The translations under genes were made by a program, and so were the position numbers. A DNA stretch of 64,000 bases from Hyphomicrobiales bacterium (lineage in GTDB: Bacteria; Pseudomonadota; Alphaproteobacteria; Rhizobiales; Rhizobiaceae), in assembly GCA_900473915.1 (NCBI GenBank), contig UCNG01000004.1:62001-126000 (forward strand), in the 5' to 3' direction. Below the pieces are notes generated by a model. That model saw only the letters and a list, made by a program, of their open reading frames with translations, searched no databases and was not told the origin of the DNA. This document shows, piece after piece, positions 14,162 to 44,438 of the stretch (within the stretch, counting starts at the first letter, position 1; every line of letters begins with the position of its first letter).

Positions 14162-15355
14162 ATGCCCCTCGACTGTGACGCATTTCACGCCGCCTGGATA
14201 GCGACGGTTCTCAATCTCGATTGGCCGTCGCGGAGTTCAGCCCGCATTGAGGACGATTCCGAGCGTATAAAGCGTCAGAAACAGGAGTTGGTGCGGCTTT
14301 TCGATGAAGCGTCAGAGCATGGCATCAACGCTGTCATCTTTCAGGTGTCACCGACTGCCGATGCGCTCTATCAGTCATCTTATTTGCCATGGTCTTCCTA
14401 TCTGACTGGAACTCTCGGCAAGAATCCGGGCTTTGATCCGCTGAAATTTGCTATTCAGGAAGCGCATAAGCGCGGCATAGAACTGCATGCATGGCTGAAC
14501 CCCTATCGCGTTTCGATGGATACAAAGCCGTCAACGCGCAAGGAGTTGCGAAATTCGTCGAAGGAGTCGCCAGCCAGTGTTTATAAGACCCACCCTGATT
14601 GGGTTGGCGTATCGGCAGATCGTTATGTTCTCGATCCCGGCATTCCGGCGGTTCGCGAGTGGGTGACGAATGTAACGGCGGAGGTCGTGCAGAAATATGA
14701 TGTCGATGGCATCCAGTTCGATGACTATTTCTACTACGAAACGGCATCGTCGCAACTTGATGACGCCAAATCATATGCGCAGTTTGGCACACGTTTTTCG
14801 AGTAAATACGAATGGCGTCGCTACAACACTCATACGTTGGTGCGGGAAATTTCCGACAAGATAAAGTCTATCAAACCAAACGTTCGTTTTGGCATCAGCC
14901 CGAGCGGTGTTTGGCGCAATGTTGCAGACGATCCGCGTGGTTCTGCGACGAAAGCCGGCAAAACCAATTATGACGGGGACTTTGCCGACACGCGGCGATG
15001 GGTCAAGGAAGGTCTGATCGACTATATCGCGCCTCAGATTTACTGGTCTTTTGGCCGCAAGGAGGTGTCCTACGGGACTATCGCCAAATGGTGGGCAGAG
15101 ACGGTTCGGGGGACAAAGACCGATCTTTATATCGGCCTGGCACTTTATCGGGCCGGTTCGGGGACGACGCTCGAGCCCGGATGGCAGGCTGGCGATGGCG
15201 TGACAGAAATCAAACGTCAGCTTGAACTCAATGATTCCCTGCCGGAAGTGAAAGGGAGCATTCTATTTCGTCAGGGTTTCCTTTCCGATCCCAAAGTCAA
15301 AGGTGTGTCGGACTATCTGAAAAAGACATGGGGCAAGTGTGATCGCCGAAAATGA
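14162..15355 (+). CDS. GH10-like (YngK/DUF187-type) glycosyl hydrolase-like protein
   Basis: About 397 residues with the TIM-barrel pattern of the GHL10/DUF187 family: HAAWIATVLNLDWPS near the N-terminus, HGINAVIFQVSPTADALY, GIELHAWLNPYRV, YVLDPGIPAVREWV, YDVDGIQFDDYFYY and DYIAPQIYWSF. Known members are mostly secreted or lipoprotein glycosidases of unclear substrate. This copy has no signal peptide: the frame is closed upstream at 14096, and only TTG 14129 or ATG 14162 are available. GGAA lies 8 bp before 14162, which I chose. It is therefore predicted cytoplasmic, or exported by another route. Confidence 0.75.
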   Translation: MPLDCDAFHAAWIATVLNLDWPSRSSARIEDDSERIKRQKQELVRLFDEASEHGINAVIFQVSPTADALYQSSYLPWSSYLTGTLGKNPGFDPLKFAIQEAHKRGIELHAWLNPYRVSMDTKPSTRKELRNSSKESPASVYKTHPDWVGVSADRYVLDPGIPAVREWVTNVTAEVVQKYDVDGIQFDDYFYYETASSQLDDAKSYAQFGTRFSSKYEWRRYNTHTLVREISDKIKSIKPNVRFGISPSGVWRNVADDPRGSATKAGKTNYDGDFADTRRWVKEGLIDYIAPQIYWSFGRKEVSYGTIAKWWAETVRGTKTDLYIGLALYRAGSGTTLEPGWQAGDGVTEIKRQLELNDSLPEVKGSILFRQGFLSDPKVKGVSDYLKKTWGKCDRRK

Positions 15356-15395
15356 CGGAAGCAGAGGATAATTATCCGCAGGAATTGCCGCTTGT

Positions 15396-15409
15396 TTGAT
15401 TGAAATCAA
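15396..15409 (+). promoter_or_regulatory. Perfect FNR/FixK-type box (site 1)
   Basis: TTGAT-TGAA-ATCAA matches the FNR/FixK/FnrN consensus TTGAT-N4-ATCAA in every fixed position, with arms extending to TTTGAT/ATCAAA. Its centre (15402.5) is 41.5 bp from a predicted start at about 15444, and TAACCA lies at the -12 to -7 position (15432-15437), the class-II activator geometry. No annotated gene follows; a hairpin-rich segment does. Confidence 0.6.
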
Positions 15410-15443
15410 AGAGCCTCGTTTGAGCGGGTGCTAACCAGCCATC

Positions 15444-15640
15444 GTTGCCGGTTTCCACCAGAGCTGGTGACCCGGGGTGCCGAGGCCCTACTCGAATGGC
15501 ACCCCGGCTATATCAATCTGTCGAGCGCATGAGCGCGATCTTTCTGCAACGTCGCCTGTCGACAGCCAGCGGGTGCTGTCGGCGTTGCTCCCCTCTGTTT
15601 CATCAAACCAGCACCCGCGCCCAATCTAAAAAAATGAGCA
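15444..15640 (+). ncRNA. Candidate oxygen-responsive small RNA or leader
   Basis: The segment after FNR site 1 holds consecutive inverted repeats: CACCA-GAGC-TGGTG (15456-15469); CCGGGGTGCC...GGCACCCCGG (15472-15507, perfect 10-bp stem, 16-nt loop); GCGC-ATGA-GCGC (about 15525-15536); and GCGGGTGCTG...CAGCACCCGC (15569-15618, perfect 10-bp stem). No strong T tract closes it, so the 3' end is uncertain. It also holds two overlapping tiny frames (one ending and one starting in the ATGA at 15529; the latter runs to 15669 and has a CCRRC motif). No known RNA family was recognised. This is inference from structure and promoter only. Confidence 0.35.
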
Positions 15641-15699
15641 TTTTAAATGCGTGTCGCGTTTTATCGTAGTCATATGACACCCTTTAAGTTTTTGTTTTC

Positions 15700-15748
15700 A
15701 TGCATGTCTTGATCCCAAAACCGGTTCCCACTTTTGGGAGACAAGCAT
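15700..15748. repeat. Short palindromic dispersed repeat, half-length copy
   Basis: ATGCATGTCT at one end pairs (one mismatch) with AGACAAGCAT at the other, enclosing TCCCAAAACCGGTTCCCACTTTTGGGA-like sequence. The core CC-AAAACCG-TTC-CACTTTT-GG is shared with the element at 2771-2875. It lies just 8 bp before FNR site 2. Confidence 0.6.
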
Positions 15749-15756
15749 TAGTAGTC

Positions 15757-15770
15757 TTGATCTTGATCAA
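15757..15770 (+). promoter_or_regulatory. Perfect FNR/FixK-type box (site 2) and -10 for the exporter operon
   Basis: TTGAT-CTTG-ATCAA (arms extend to CTTGAT/ATCAAG) matches the FNR/FixK consensus. TAGAAC at 15793-15798 sits exactly where a -10 belongs for a start at about 15805, 41.5 bp from the box centre. This would give an approximately 200-nt leader before the hlyD-like gene. Confidence 0.65.
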
Positions 15771-16007
15771 GGCTGGCAACCGTAACCGTGGTTAGAACAA
15801 GCTCAGCCGGGAGTTTGCGATTCACAATCGCTTCCCCCAATTTCACCGGTTGCTAAATGAAAAGGTAGTTCCATATTTTCCCAGAAGATTCCGGCGGATG
15901 CCGGAGGCGGGGCGGTGGGAACAATGAACCCTTGCAGACAGCGACCGCTCGCCGATGCTTCGTTCGAAGACGGTGTTGTGACGCGACGTTGGTAAAGGGT
16001 GGTTCAT

Positions 16008-17075
16008 ATGGCATTCAACCGCAAGCAATTGATACTGGCTGGAGCGATTATCGTCCTTGCTGCAGGCGGATATTATGCCTGGAAAGCATTTAATGGCGAT
16101 GGATTGCCGGACGATATCGCCAAGGGCAATGGGCGTATAGAGGCGGTTGAAATCGACATTTCGACAAAGAGCCCGGGCCGCATTCGCGAAATTCTCGCGG
16201 ATGAAGGTGATTTTGTGCAGGAAAACGACATTCTTGCACGCATGGATACAGATCAGCTGGAAAGCCAGCGCAAGCAGGCGGAAGCACAGTTGCGCCGGGC
16301 CGAGATCGGTATCGAAACGGCGCGCAGCTTTGTCACGCAGCGCGAGGCCGAGCACACGGCCGCCGAAGCAACTGTGGCACAGCGCGAAGCGCAACTGGAT
16401 GCTGCTCAACGCCGCCTGGTTCGATCTCAGCAGTTGACGCAATCACGCACGGTATCTCAACAGGTTCTCGACGATGACCGCGCGACCGCGCAGGGCGCAG
16501 AAGCGGCTGTCGGCGCAGCCAGAGCGCAGCTTGCCGCCACTGAGGCAGCCATAAGTGCTGCAAAGGCGCAGGTCGTTGATGCCGAGGCATCGGTCGAAGC
16601 CGCCAGGGCGGCAATCGCAAGCATCGAAGCAGATATCAACGACGCCACTTTGAGAGCGCCGAAGCCGGGACGTGTTCAATACCGCGTCGCTCAACCGGGG
16701 GAGGTGCTTTCTGCGGGTGGCAGGGTGCTTAATCTTGTAGACGTGAGCGACGTTTATATGACCTTCTTCCTGCCGACGGCGCAGGCAGGGCGGGTAGCCA
16801 TGGGCGCAGATGCCCGGATCGTTCTCGATGCCGCACCACAATATGTCATTCCCGCAAAGATCAGCTTTGTCGCCGATGTGGCCCAGTTTACGCCGAAGAC
16901 CGTTGAGACGGAGGAAGAGCGCCAGAAGCTGATGTTCCGCGTGAAGGCGAAGATTCCGCAAAAACTTCTCCAAAAATATATACAGCAGGTGAAAACGGGT
17001 TTGCCGGGCATGGCCTATGTCAAGCTTGATCCCGATGCCGATTGGCCGAAGAATCTTGCGGAAACCGTGCAATGA
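16008..17075 (+). CDS. HlyD-family periplasmic adaptor subunit (YhiI-like)
   Basis: Membrane-fusion protein of about 355 residues linking the inner-membrane ABC exporter to the outer envelope. An N-terminal anchor [18 protein letters not shown] (about residues 7-24) is followed by a lipoyl-like half ([20 protein letters not shown]), a long alanine/glutamine-rich coiled-coil hairpin (about residues 85-215), and the second lipoyl/beta-barrel half ([20 protein letters not shown]). AAAGGG lies 8 bp before ATG 16008; an in-frame GTG at 15999 overlaps that site and is rejected. First gene of a three-gene exporter operon downstream of FNR site 2; its stop overlaps the next start (ATGA). Confidence 0.85.
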
Positions 17076-20966: not shown

Positions 20967-21087
20967 GAAAATTCTTTGAAAACAGGAGGCTGAGTCCATT
21001 CCTTGCGAATGTGATTCAGTTTTCTGTGCCGGATTGCGCTTTAGTTGAGTTGCGAATCCTTAACCATGTTGCTATCGCAGTTCTCAG

Positions 21088-21283
21088 GAAACGGTTCCGC
21101 TGTTCAGGCGGATGAAAAGGGAACACGGTGAAGCCATTCTGGCTGATGCCGCGACTGCCCCCGCAACTGTAACCGGAGAGCTATCCTCCACAGCCGCGCA
21201 AGCGGTGAAAGCCACTGAAAGCAAGCATGCGATCGGGAAGGCGGAGGTAAGGCGATGACCCGGAAGTCAGGAGACCTGCCGTA
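21088..21283 (+). ncRNA. Cobalamin (B12) riboswitch
   Basis: The conserved elements occur in order: AAAAGGGAACACGGTGA (about 21115), CCCCCGCAACTGTAACCGGAGAG (B12 box region, 21158-21180), GAAAGCCACTG (about 21207), GGGAAGGCGG (21235) and GACCCGGAAGTCAGGAGACCTGCC (21257-21280). This is the textbook AdoCbl aptamer layout. It precedes the B12 uptake operon and should lower its expression when cobalamin is abundant. Confidence 0.95.
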
Positions 21284-21308
21284 TCCTGTCACCCATGCAT
21301 GGATACGG
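21279..21308 (+). promoter_or_regulatory. Hairpin downstream of the B12 aptamer (expression platform candidate)
   Basis: CCGTATCC (21279-21286) pairs perfectly with GGATACGG (21301-21308). The 5' arm overlaps the closing strand of the aptamer, so aptamer closure and this hairpin would compete. It is not followed by a T tract, and the btuB start lies about 140 bp downstream. Confidence 0.4.
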
Positions 21309-21447: not shown

Positions 21448-23313
21448 ATGCACCTTTTGAAATCATCAGTTCTGCTGGCATCGGCCAGTATTCTTGCGCT
21501 GTCATCCACGGCATCGGCACAAAATCTGCCGGACGGCGATGACGTTGTGGTTCTCGACACAATCGTGGTCACACCATTGCGCCGCGCGTCTTCGCTCCAG
21601 CGCTCGACATCATCTGTGACAGTCATCGATTCAGCGGATATCGAGCGTTCAGCCGCTCCCGATCTGCAATCCTTGCTGAAATCCTATAGCGGCATCTCCA
21701 TAAAGACGAATGGCGGGCAGGGTGCATCTTCGGATATTTATATGCGCGGCATGTCGTCCAAGCAGACGGTCGTGTTGATTAATGGCGTACGCACCGCATC
21801 GGCTACGTCCGGTTCCACGGCGCTTGCGAACATTCCCTTGAGCTCCATCGATCGCATCGAGATCGCAAAGGGTGCCCATTCTGCGCAATATGGGGCCGAT
21901 GCGATGGGTGGGGTAATCAATATCATCACCAGGCAGGGTGGAGCTTGCGGTGAGCGCTCCTGGTGCGGCAGTCTTTCTAGCGGTGTCAGCCATCCCTGGG
22001 GCGGGTATGTGTCGGGGTCCGTTCAGGGGCGAAGCAGCGACGGCATCGACTATGCTTTTGGTGCGGCGATCACAGGCACGCAAGGCTATGATTTCACGAC
22101 ACTGGACGCGTTTGGCCATGAGCCGGATCGCGACGGATTTCTGCAAGGATCGTTCAACTTTGCGCTGTCGAAAGATTTCGACTGGGGCAAAATCTATGCC
22201 GATAGTCTCTTCAGCCGGGGACGGAACCAATATGATGCCAAGGCACCATCTCCGAACCAGGCCGACAGCACGGCATTTGCCGGCAAGCTTGGAACGCGCA
22301 TCGATCATTCAGCGGATTGGTCGTCTACGCTGGAGTTTAGCACCGGCATCGACAGCAGTCGTAATTTCCGCAAGGGCGTGAACGGGTCTGACCGGTTTGA
22401 AACCAAGCGTTATGGGGTCTTTGCGTCGACCGAGAAGAGTTTCGACACAGGCAATGCCAATCATATCGTGACTGCTGGTGTGGAAGCCTATCGGGAGGAG
22501 ATCAACACCACGGTTGCCTATGATGAAACCAGTCGCGATCTGGCTGCCATATTTGGCCAGTACTCGCTGGAATACGAGGCGCTACGCGTCGATAGCGGAC
22601 TGCGTTACGACCACAACAGTCAGTTCGGTGATGTCGTGACCTACAATCTCGGTACGAGCTATGAGGTTTTGCCGGATCTGGTTTTGCGGTCATCCTATGC
22701 CACGGGTTTTCGGGCCCCGACGTTCAACGAACTTTATTATCCCGGTTTCGCCAATCCAGATCTGCAACCGGAAAAGTCCCGTTCCTATGAAGTCGGCTTG
22801 AACTGGCAGGCTACGGCTTCGACCAGTCTCGATATGGCATTTTATCAGACGTGGTTGCGCGATGCGATCATGAGCACGGCGCCATCCTATTTGCCGTACA
22901 ATATCGCCAGTGCGAAAGTTACCGGATTCGAGGCCACGCTGGCGCATCGTTTTGATGATCGCTGGGGCGTCAAGGGCTCGGTCGATCTCAAACAGCCAGT
23001 CGATGAGGATACAGGCGGGGACCTTCCTTATCGTGAACGTTTCAAGGCTGCGGCCGAGATCAACTTCATGCCGATTCAAAAGCTCGATCTGACGGCAAGA
23101 TTGATTTATGGCGGTTCGCGCTATGCCGATGCTGCGAATAACAAGAAGCTGGGAGACTATGTGACCGCTGATTTCGTGGCACTTTATTCCATCGACAGCC
23201 AATCGCAGTTGAAGTTCTCGGTCGAGAATATCTTTGACAAGGATTATCAGAGCAGCTCTGGCTATATTGCACCGGGACGGACCATCAATATCGGATTGAC
23301 CCGGAATTTCTGA
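21448..23313 (+). CDS. btuB: TonB-dependent vitamin B12 receptor
   Basis: Outer-membrane TonB-dependent receptor of 621 residues. A signal peptide (SVLLASASILALSSTASA, cut about residue 24) is followed by a TonB-box-like DTIVVTPL, the plug domain (TIDSADIER...IYMRGMSSKQTVVLINGVR...GGVINIITR, to about residue 150), and a 22-strand barrel ending in TINIGLTRNF with the terminal phenylalanine. The riboswitch and the downstream BtuFCD genes identify cobalamin as the likely substrate. First gene of the operon; the next starts 13 bp after its stop. Confidence 0.92.
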   Translation: MHLLKSSVLLASASILALSSTASAQNLPDGDDVVVLDTIVVTPLRRASSLQRSTSSVTVIDSADIERSAAPDLQSLLKSYSGISIKTNGGQGASSDIYMRGMSSKQTVVLINGVRTASATSGSTALANIPLSSIDRIEIAKGAHSAQYGADAMGGVINIITRQGGACGERSWCGSLSSGVSHPWGGYVSGSVQGRSSDGIDYAFGAAITGTQGYDFTTLDAFGHEPDRDGFLQGSFNFALSKDFDWGKIYADSLFSRGRNQYDAKAPSPNQADSTAFAGKLGTRIDHSADWSSTLEFSTGIDSSRNFRKGVNGSDRFETKRYGVFASTEKSFDTGNANHIVTAGVEAYREEINTTVAYDETSRDLAAIFGQYSLEYEALRVDSGLRYDHNSQFGDVVTYNLGTSYEVLPDLVLRSSYATGFRAPTFNELYYPGFANPDLQPEKSRSYEVGLNWQATASTSLDMAFYQTWLRDAIMSTAPSYLPYNIASAKVTGFEATLAHRFDDRWGVKGSVDLKQPVDEDTGGDLPYRERFKAAAEINFMPIQKLDLTARLIYGGSRYADAANNKKLGDYVTADFVALYSIDSQSQLKFSVENIFDKDYQSSSGYIAPGRTINIGLTRNF

Positions 23314-42547: not shown

Positions 42548-42869
42548 TCGGCCTCTTGTATGGCGGGCTCCAGACTGCATAATAACAGGACCATATGTTT
42601 CATATGGCAACCGGTTTCGCTAAGGCTTATGCCTCGCAAACCTCTTACATAAGGTTCATCGCGCTTTATGCCCGACGACAGTTCTGACGATTCGTCTTCT
42701 CGAAGTCCGAATTTCCCAGAGGGATGTTCGGGCTTCCTCTGCATTGAACAATTCCCGATAAGCTTCGCCATTTCGAGACTGGACCGTAGGATGCGGCCCG
42801 GTCACAAATTGTTTGCGACAATATCTCCAATTTCCATTTCCGCTGATCTTTAAGAGGAGCCGACATATC
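42548..42869. other. Intergenic gap before the terC-like gene
   Basis: 322 bp. It contains the palindrome CCATATG-TTT-CATATGG (42591-42607). I looked for a yybP-ykoY manganese riboswitch, common before terC-like genes, and did not recognise one. A 61-codon frame (42668-42853) is Ser/Asp-rich and unsupported. Confidence 0.4.
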
Positions 42870-44438
42870 ATGGACTGGTCCATGGACTGGATTGCCGACC
42901 CCAATGCCTGGATAGGTTTGGTGACATTGGTGGTACTCGAGATCGTTCTCGGTATCGACAATCTCGTCTTCATCGCCATTCTGGCCGACAAACTGCCCCC
43001 GCATCAACGCAATCGTGCGCGGCTGGTCGGTCTTACCCTGGCTCTTCTGATGCGTTTGGTGCTGCTCGCTTCGATTTCATGGATCGTTACGCTTCGCGAG
43101 CCATTGATCTCGTTGATGGGCATGTCCTTCTCGGGGCGGGACATCATCATGCTGATCGGCGGTCTGTTCCTCCTTGCCAAGGGCACCATGGAACTCCATG
43201 AACGACTGGAAGGCGATCACGGGCCCAAAAGCTCCAAGGCAGTCCATGCCGTGTTCTGGCAGGTGATTGTCCAGATTGTCGTTCTGGACGCCGTGTTCTC
43301 GCTCGACAGTGTCATCACGGCCGTTGGCATGGTTCAACACCTGCCGGTCATGATGATCGCTGTGGTGATCGCCATCGGCGTGATGATGCTTGCTTCCAAG
43401 CCGCTGATGGATTTTGTCAACAAGCACCCGACCGTTGTGATCCTGTGTCTCGGTTTTCTTATGATGATCGGCTTCAGTCTGGTCGTGGAGGGCTTCGGCT
43501 TCCATATCCCGAAGGGCTATCTCTATGCGGCGATCGGCTTCTCGGTGTTGATCGAGGCTGCCAATCAGATGTCGCGGCACAATCGTGAAAAATTGGTCAC
43601 TACCAATGATTTGCGTGAACGCACGGCAGGTGCCGTTTTGCGCCTGCTGGGTGGCGGTCGTGGCGAAAACCCGCTCTCCGATACTGTGGACGTGATCGCC
43701 CAGCAGACAGCGGCCAGCGATGTCTTCCTGCCCGAAGAAAAAGAGATGATCCGCGGCGTTCTCGATCTGGCCGACCGGCCTGTGCGTTCCATCATGTCGC
43801 CGCGCAACGAGATCGAATGGCTTGATCTTGATGAAGATCAAGCGGAACTCGATGCGGCCATTCGCAAGCTGTCGCATTCCCGCGTCATCGTTGCACGCCG
43901 TCAGGTGGATGAATTCGTTGGAGTGGCACTGGTCAGGGATCTTCTGCTGGATATCGGCGACAGGAAACCTGTCGACTGGGACAAGACTGTGAAGCAGCCG
44001 CTTGTCGTGCATGAAAATGCAAATGTGCTGCGCGTGATGGAACAGTTGCGCAATTCACCTGTTCAGATTGCGGTCGTCGTGGATGAGCATGGCTCTTTCG
44101 AAGGTGTGGTGACGCCCACCGACGTTCTGGAAGCCATTGCCGGTGAATTTCCGGATGAAGACGAAGAGGCCGCTGTCGCGCAGTCGGACGGGCAGGGTGG
44201 TTATCTCGTGGACGGCTTCACGGATATCCGCCGTTTGAGTGGGCTTCTGGAGCGCGATCTTCTCGACGATGGCGATCGCTATACGACCCTTGCCGGCTAT
44301 GTTCTCTGGCATCTGGGACATCTGCCTCTGGGCGGGGAAAGTTTCGTCGCCGATGGTCTGGAGTTCAAGATCGAGTCGATGAATGGTCGTCACATCGGCA
44401 AGGTCCGTATTACGCCCTCAATCGACTATGAGGTATAA
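42870..44438 (+). CDS. TerC-family membrane protein with CBS pair and CorC/HlyC domain
   Basis: 522 residues. The N-terminal TerC domain (about residues 1-240) has seven helices with paired acidic motifs [15 protein letters not shown] and [15 protein letters not shown], which are metal-site candidates. It is followed by two CBS repeats (about 300-425: [18 protein letters not shown]... and ...[21 protein letters not shown]) and a CorC_HlyC transporter-associated domain ending in KVRITPSI. E. coli YoaE/YegH share this architecture. Related proteins export manganese or calcium. AGAGGAGC lies before ATG 42870. Confidence 0.87.

Follow-up and report, generated by a model that had tools for sequence, protein, structure and literature searches.

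PhrS and AniS are small RNAs (sRNAs) that stand under FNR-type activators in other bacterial classes. FnrS of E. coli is likewise an FNR-activated sRNA (PMC10653809; here and below, each paper is cited for an available part of its text), and the alpha-r14/NfeR1 sRNAs of the Rhizobiales, which occur in Alphaproteobacteria including Brucellaceae, have hairpin loops with unpaired anti-Shine-Dalgarno motifs (PMC7143759). Descriptions exist of FnrN in Brucella suis and of NnrA in B. melitensis, and FnrN matters for adaptation in Brucella (PMC5435760). The locus described here lies in a 64,000-nt stretch of contig UCNG01000004.1 (positions 62,001 to 126,000; assembly GCA_900473915.1, a Hyphomicrobiales bacterium), which is called the window and is numbered from its first nucleotide. 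At 15396-15409 the window carries an FNR box, and the segment behind it, as judged from its sequence, is very probably the gene for a small, folded RNA that is switched on at low oxygen. More specifically, we consider it probable that the product is an FnrN-dependent, trans-acting sRNA of ~175 nt with a kissing-hairpin 3' domain, belonging to a new family shared with phages. An earlier note on this DNA had already proposed an sRNA at this site; that proposal is supported here but was incomplete, the loop-loop helix and the phage relatives having been missed.

Like FnrS, the window RNA is predicted to be an FNR-dependent noncoding RNA of anaerobic cells, but no sequence or structure relation between the two was found (no Rfam match). 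We know of no loop-loop core and no phage relatives for FnrS. The alpha-r14/NfeR1 RNAs share with the window RNA several hairpins with unpaired loop segments, which are here candidates for anti-Shine-Dalgarno motifs; again, however, there is no Rfam match, and the window RNA differs in its loops (CCACCA and CCCCTC), in the FNR box ahead of it, and in having a loop-loop helix. No match to PhrS or AniS was found. The segment had no Rfam match at the gathering score, and at E ≤ 10 it had four sub-threshold matches, none of them FnrS or alpha-r14. No FNR-controlled sRNA of Brucella or Ochrobactrum was found among the titles and abstract beginnings searched, and absence there is of course not absence from print. 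In the available part of a review of Brucella sRNAs (PMC9751625), the terms FNR and oxygen do not occur, and the window RNA is not reported in the available parts of PMC12772402, PMC9751625, PMC4842269, PMC10653809, PMC7143759, or PMC5435760. If the proposed reading is true, an RNA layer is added to low-oxygen control in the genus where FnrN matters for adaptation (PMC5435760), and temperate phages and their hosts have in common a structured RNA family whose fold is directly testable.

FNR box and promoter

The FNR box TTGATTGAAATCAA (15396-15409, on the plus strand, as are all features of the RNA given below) is perfect, as the earlier note had stated. The window contains three perfect FNR boxes versus 0.13 expected, and none of 100 shuffles reached three; a chance origin of the box was set aside on these counts. 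The second perfect box (15757-15770) stands in front of the downstream hlyD gene, 22 nt from TAGAAC, and the third (43828-43841) lies within the open reading frame (ORF) 42813-44438. Located 22 nt 3' of the first box is TAACCA (15432-15437), directly preceded by TGC, the two together giving an extended -10 element (15429-15437). The hexamer occupies the class-II -10 position that had been claimed for it, and box spacing predicts a start at 15444, 41.5 nt past the center of the box. A sigma-70-type promoter with a -35 hexamer was not found in a consensus scan of the plus strand of 15300-16020, which fits an activator-dependent promoter.

Over 33 rows, i.e., the window and 32 carrier genomes, the box is perfect throughout, and it precedes the conserved block by 41.5 nt in 13 rows and by 42.5 nt in the other 20. 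Among the relatives, its half-sites are fixed and its spacer sequence varies. All six genomes examined encode an FnrN-like protein, a Crp-family member that has ETVSR and a cluster of cysteines at its N terminus. FnrN would be the most likely activator, NnrA being another candidate.

Conservation in the genus

A protein search with HlyD, from which the best 80 loci were taken, included 13 syntenic Brucella/Ochrobactrum loci (L001-L011, L013, and L016); all 13 have kept the box, together with the segment as far as about 15620. Five more loci with close HlyD relatives (L012, L014, L015, L017, and L029) had no match to the box/RNA region, and the genome of L029 has box and RNA at another place. 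A covariance model, R1, made from the 13 syntenic loci and the window and thus from chromosomal sequences only, found matches with E ≤ 1.2e-40 in 32 of the 35 genus genomes and missed G026, G009, and G043. All 13 source genomes are among the 32 matched, and 19 are therefore new to R1. The conservation of box and hairpins in relatives that the earlier note had set as a test was thus found, the box being perfect in 33/33 rows.

Beyond the genus, stricter filters were used in the family search with R1 and in an order search with a second model (below). In 199 family genomes, R1 gave six matches at E ≤ 0.01; four were strong, all of them in the genus, and the other two were marginal (E about 0.0096). 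When 394 family genomes were searched with a pattern, seven matched; the matches in G001 and G035 are copies, and the other five are without the downstream arm. In the samples searched, the predicted RNA is a genus-level feature and not a family-wide one. The R1 match in the window spans 15440-15622; the conserved block starts at the predicted start and stops at the last hairpin, stem T, with conservation ending right after GCACCCGCG.

Short open frames are present on both strands of the segment and could point to a small-protein gene or a dual-function RNA. Three start-codon columns are common to at least 80% of the 33 rows (31, 33, and 28 rows), but the frames from them to their stops are highly variable (12-143, 10-80, and 14-76 codons), and none of the shared start codons opens a frame whose length is constant over the 33 rows; indels in the alignment are also not multiples of three. 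We regard a coding function as extremely improbable, and as far as the sequences indicate the segment is noncoding and separately encoded.

Fold of the predicted RNA

Of 200 shuffles, only 2 had a folding energy as low as that of 15444-15640 (z = -3.04), and up to 15620 the segment folds as four hairpins. The four consecutive inverted repeats that had been described, two of them with perfect 10-bp stems, were all recovered at 15444-15618. The predicted sRNA (15444-15622, about 175-180 nt) has its start set by box spacing and the onset of conservation, and its end by the last conserved stem. Hairpin H1 (15444-15471) has 11 pairs, several of which are G-U, and the loop CCACCA (15455-15460); H2 (15472-15507) is a perfect 10-bp hairpin, and each of the two has five pairs with changes on both sides. 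Hairpin P3 (15518-15565) is formed by 7 bp, 15518-15524 pairing with 15559-15565, and encloses an inner 4-bp hairpin (15525-15536). The perfect 10-bp hairpin T (15569-15618) closes the RNA; both P3 and T are paired in 32/32 distinct rows and hardly vary. The P3 and T loops are joined by a loop-loop helix, X1 (15546-15588, with 15546-15553 pairing with 15581-15588), in which four pairs have changes on both sides. Unpaired in the T loop is CCCCTC (15590-15595), a putative anti-Shine-Dalgarno contact, whose CCCTC (15591-15595) is invariant in the 33 rows.

Overall, 14 of 50 pairs, in H1, H2, and X1, have changes on both sides, and 98.5% of cells are paired (33 aligned sequences, 32 distinct). None of 500 shuffles reached 14 pairs, and sliding the partners by 1-3 columns left 2-4 pairs; the compensatory stem changes that had also been set as a test are therefore present. 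In the model, the order P3, X1, P3', T, X1', T' looks like that of kissing hairpins. The helices are backed by covariation, and we infer that P3, X1, and T coexist.

Instead of coexisting, the helices of the 3' half could form a switch, in which X1 and an inner helix, X2 (7 bp in the window), alternate with P3 and T. Step-wise folding of the window is in keeping with this, as it gives P3, X1+X2 at 146-172 nt, and P3+T from 174 nt. However, P3+T has the lower energy in 33/33 rows, X1+X2 being less stable by 2.9-12.3 kcal/mol (energies of nested folds), X2 is without an equivalent in the phage-type loci L094 and L154 (below), and the X1 strands are clear of the P3 and T strands in the window, an arrangement that in the phage types is partly imposed by the scripts. 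A switch is therefore conceivable, but we doubt it. The energies, and the lack of an X2 equivalent in those two loci, led us to reject X1+X2 as the end state of folding.

In the mechanism favored here, an FNR-type activator, most likely FnrN, would bind 15396-15409 at low oxygen as a class-II activator, and transcription would begin near 15444. The product would be a noncoding RNA of ~175 nt, ending at stem T; its fold would comprise H1, H2, and a compact 3' domain, where X1 may join P3 and T. It would act in trans, the C-rich loops CCACCA and CCCCTC pairing with the Shine-Dalgarno regions of candidate mRNAs, and such pairing would lower mRNA translation as oxygen falls. Binding or sequestration of a protein by a structured low-oxygen RNA, in place of pairing with mRNAs, would account for the compact core, its long invariant stretches, and the invariant unpaired GATC that adjoins P3; the C-rich hairpin loops, on the other hand, resemble those of base-pairing sRNAs, and we see protein binding as the unlikely, though not negligible, function.

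Phage and prophage relatives

R1 had a second match in G003, locus L094 (E 9.2e-9), which was not pre-selected. Its surroundings, with a repressor and a DNA methyltransferase, are prophage-like; surrounding phage genes were examined for L094 and L149 only. A pattern scan of viral contigs gave 39 stretches, of which 12 are copies. The chromosomal-only model R1 scores 18 of 20 phage loci (E 3e-10 to 0.021), missing L406 and L410. With a core model, R3, that includes type-1 and type-2 phage copies, phage-like copies were detected in 8 of the 35 genus genomes (G003, G027, G028, G032, G035, G036, G039, and G043). The weakest of these matches has E 0.0085, and G043 has no copy other than the phage-like one. 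In the order sample, R3 matched 1 of 297 genomes, the known member G001, and nothing outside the genus. Two further viral-contig scans gave 45 and 47 stretches, and R3 found no new member among 44 and 46 new loci (best E 0.02); in another scan, of at least 120 stretches, the best E was 0.019 for the 76 new loci among the 80 listed. Note that an architecture script also flagged many GC-rich, chance-like stretches, its shuffled control giving four matches in 641,565 bases. GenBank phages had no match for the phage RNA and, for the window RNA, weak mycobacteriophage matches only (36 bases); plasmids had no match for the phage RNA, and Rfam at E ≤ 10 had no meaningful match for L094.

The phage-type loci (e.g., L094, L149, L154, L406, L408, and L410) are like the window RNA in the predicted order of P3, X1, and T, in the inner hairpin, and in the adjoining GATC or GTTC, but have other stem sequences, no FNR box in those checked, an antisense ORF, and a position mostly 3' of a GapR-like gene. 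P3 and T are kept by compensatory change across chromosomal, type-1, and type-2 copies: pair 2 of P3 is U-A in 12/12 chromosomal, C-G in 7/7 type-1, and A-U in 3/3 type-2 copies, and pair 9 of T is U-A/U-G, C-G, or A-U across the same 12, 7, and 3 copies. The sequence of X1 differs between types, with types 2 and 2b sharing one X1; its best helix was reached by 12 (window), 25 (type 1), and 20 (type 3) of 5000 shuffles. The full layout was not found by the layout script in L408 and L409, a second script placing a 10-bp X1 further downstream in L408, and in L410 the two scripts picked different X1 helices.

A GapR-like gene is upstream in 17 of the 20 phage loci (only in L149 is it named by Pfam), and in all 20 the core is reached by an ORF of the minus strand; in L406, L407, and L410, the match to this ORF is limited to its first 32-33 residues. 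In types 1 and 2, the T stems contain G-U pairs that lie on the plus strand, and a plus-strand RNA is therefore favored. The small antisense ORF (MEHIG..AAWRVLQNARKAAIAR; L149 7933-8154, minus strand, and 19 other loci) is itself conserved; it had no Pfam match, and its type-2 form had no PHROGs match.

As judged by similarity under a sequence-structure model, the window RNA is a member of a family that temperate phages of the genus carry too. The common layout in phages and prophages could also mean that the window copy is a phage-derived remnant without a low-oxygen role, its box being coincidental. Against this, the chromosomal copies have one site, beside the gene for a GHL10 protein, and their box is invariant, with fixed spacing, in 33/33 rows; of the 20 phage cores, 12 were checked over 600 bp of upstream sequence, and none has a box with less than two mismatches. 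Such a remnant is very improbable. A more speculative suggestion, which we offer tentatively, is that an early-operon RNA of temperate Brucella/Ochrobactrum phages, from a family with a conserved kissing-hairpin core and no Rfam match, was domesticated as an FNR-controlled host RNA. Since the phage copies are antisense to a small phage ORF, the host copy might act on phage transcripts, linking oxygen to prophage behavior.

RNA 3' end and contrary evidence

Several observations weigh against an FnrN-dependent sRNA of a family shared with phages. The earlier note had named the absence of a clear terminator as its weak point, and none was found by a consensus scan of the plus strand of 15300-16020. 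Tails past stem T are only mildly T-rich in the 32 relatives (42% in 12 nt versus 31% in the next 85), and the window's own tail, poor in T, offers a weak U-tract only. An FnrN-like protein is also encoded in G026 and G043, both of which are without the RNA. Among chromosomal copies there is hardly any variation in T or in P3 with its inner hairpin, and the covariation of P3 and T therefore comes only from the phage types. X1 is not significant alone in types 2, 2b, and 4 (reached by 292, 500, and 429 of 5000 shuffles, respectively). The 18/20 score of R1 on phage loci is only partly independent because most of these loci were picked by related patterns or models. In addition, the phage core overlaps the minus-strand ORF, and part of the phage conservation may therefore be coding. 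Type-1 phage copies run on with CCTTTTT or TCTTTTT after stem T, and we take stem T to mark the end of the predicted RNA.

Neighboring genes

The gene upstream of the box, which ends at 15355, encodes a GHL10 glycosyl hydrolase-like protein; downstream, an HlyD-type adaptor gene begins at 16008 and is followed by an RbbA-like ABC transporter. The claim that no protein gene follows for ~560 bp therefore holds. Since hlyD is 3' of the RNA on the same strand in 25 of the 32 relatives, and a strong terminator was not found, the RNA might be a long 5' leader or cis-element of the downstream operon (hlyD/rbbA or a btuB-like gene). The downstream content differs, however, in the other 7 of the 32 (L087, L113, L114, L119, L121, L123, and L127), in which hlyD is absent here, box and RNA are kept, and a cobalamin riboswitch comes next after the RNA (downstream of L087 and L121 was read through L128 and L129). 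Furthermore, hlyD has its own FNR box in 13/13 syntenic loci (nine perfect, four with one mismatch), the btuB-like gene has its own cobalamin riboswitch, and conservation stops at stem T; a leader function is accordingly quite unlikely. Beside GHL10, the three genomes G026, G043, and G009 have neither the RNA nor a box with up to one mismatch; GHL10 is followed by a cobalamin riboswitch in G026 and G043 and by another gene in G009. Because box and RNA persist without hlyD, and the genomes without the RNA are also without the box, the predicted sRNA behaves in these comparisons as an autonomous unit and not as an operon leader.

In the window, a BtuB-like gene for a TonB receptor, at 21448, is preceded by the cobalamin riboswitch (21075-21297). 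The hlyD leader (15804-16007, ~200 nt) is similar in L001-L005. A dispersed repeat of ~110 bp (15641-15751), which resembles the elements called RIME, recurs in similar form in 88 plasmid records, almost all of them rhizobial, and is not present at this place in the 13 relatives compared. In L106, the GHL10 and HlyD matches are each in two pieces, possibly through frameshifts or assembly errors. The record of L015 is titled Bacillus subtilis SK6B4 and is probably mislabeled; its HlyD gene is 80% identical to that of the window.
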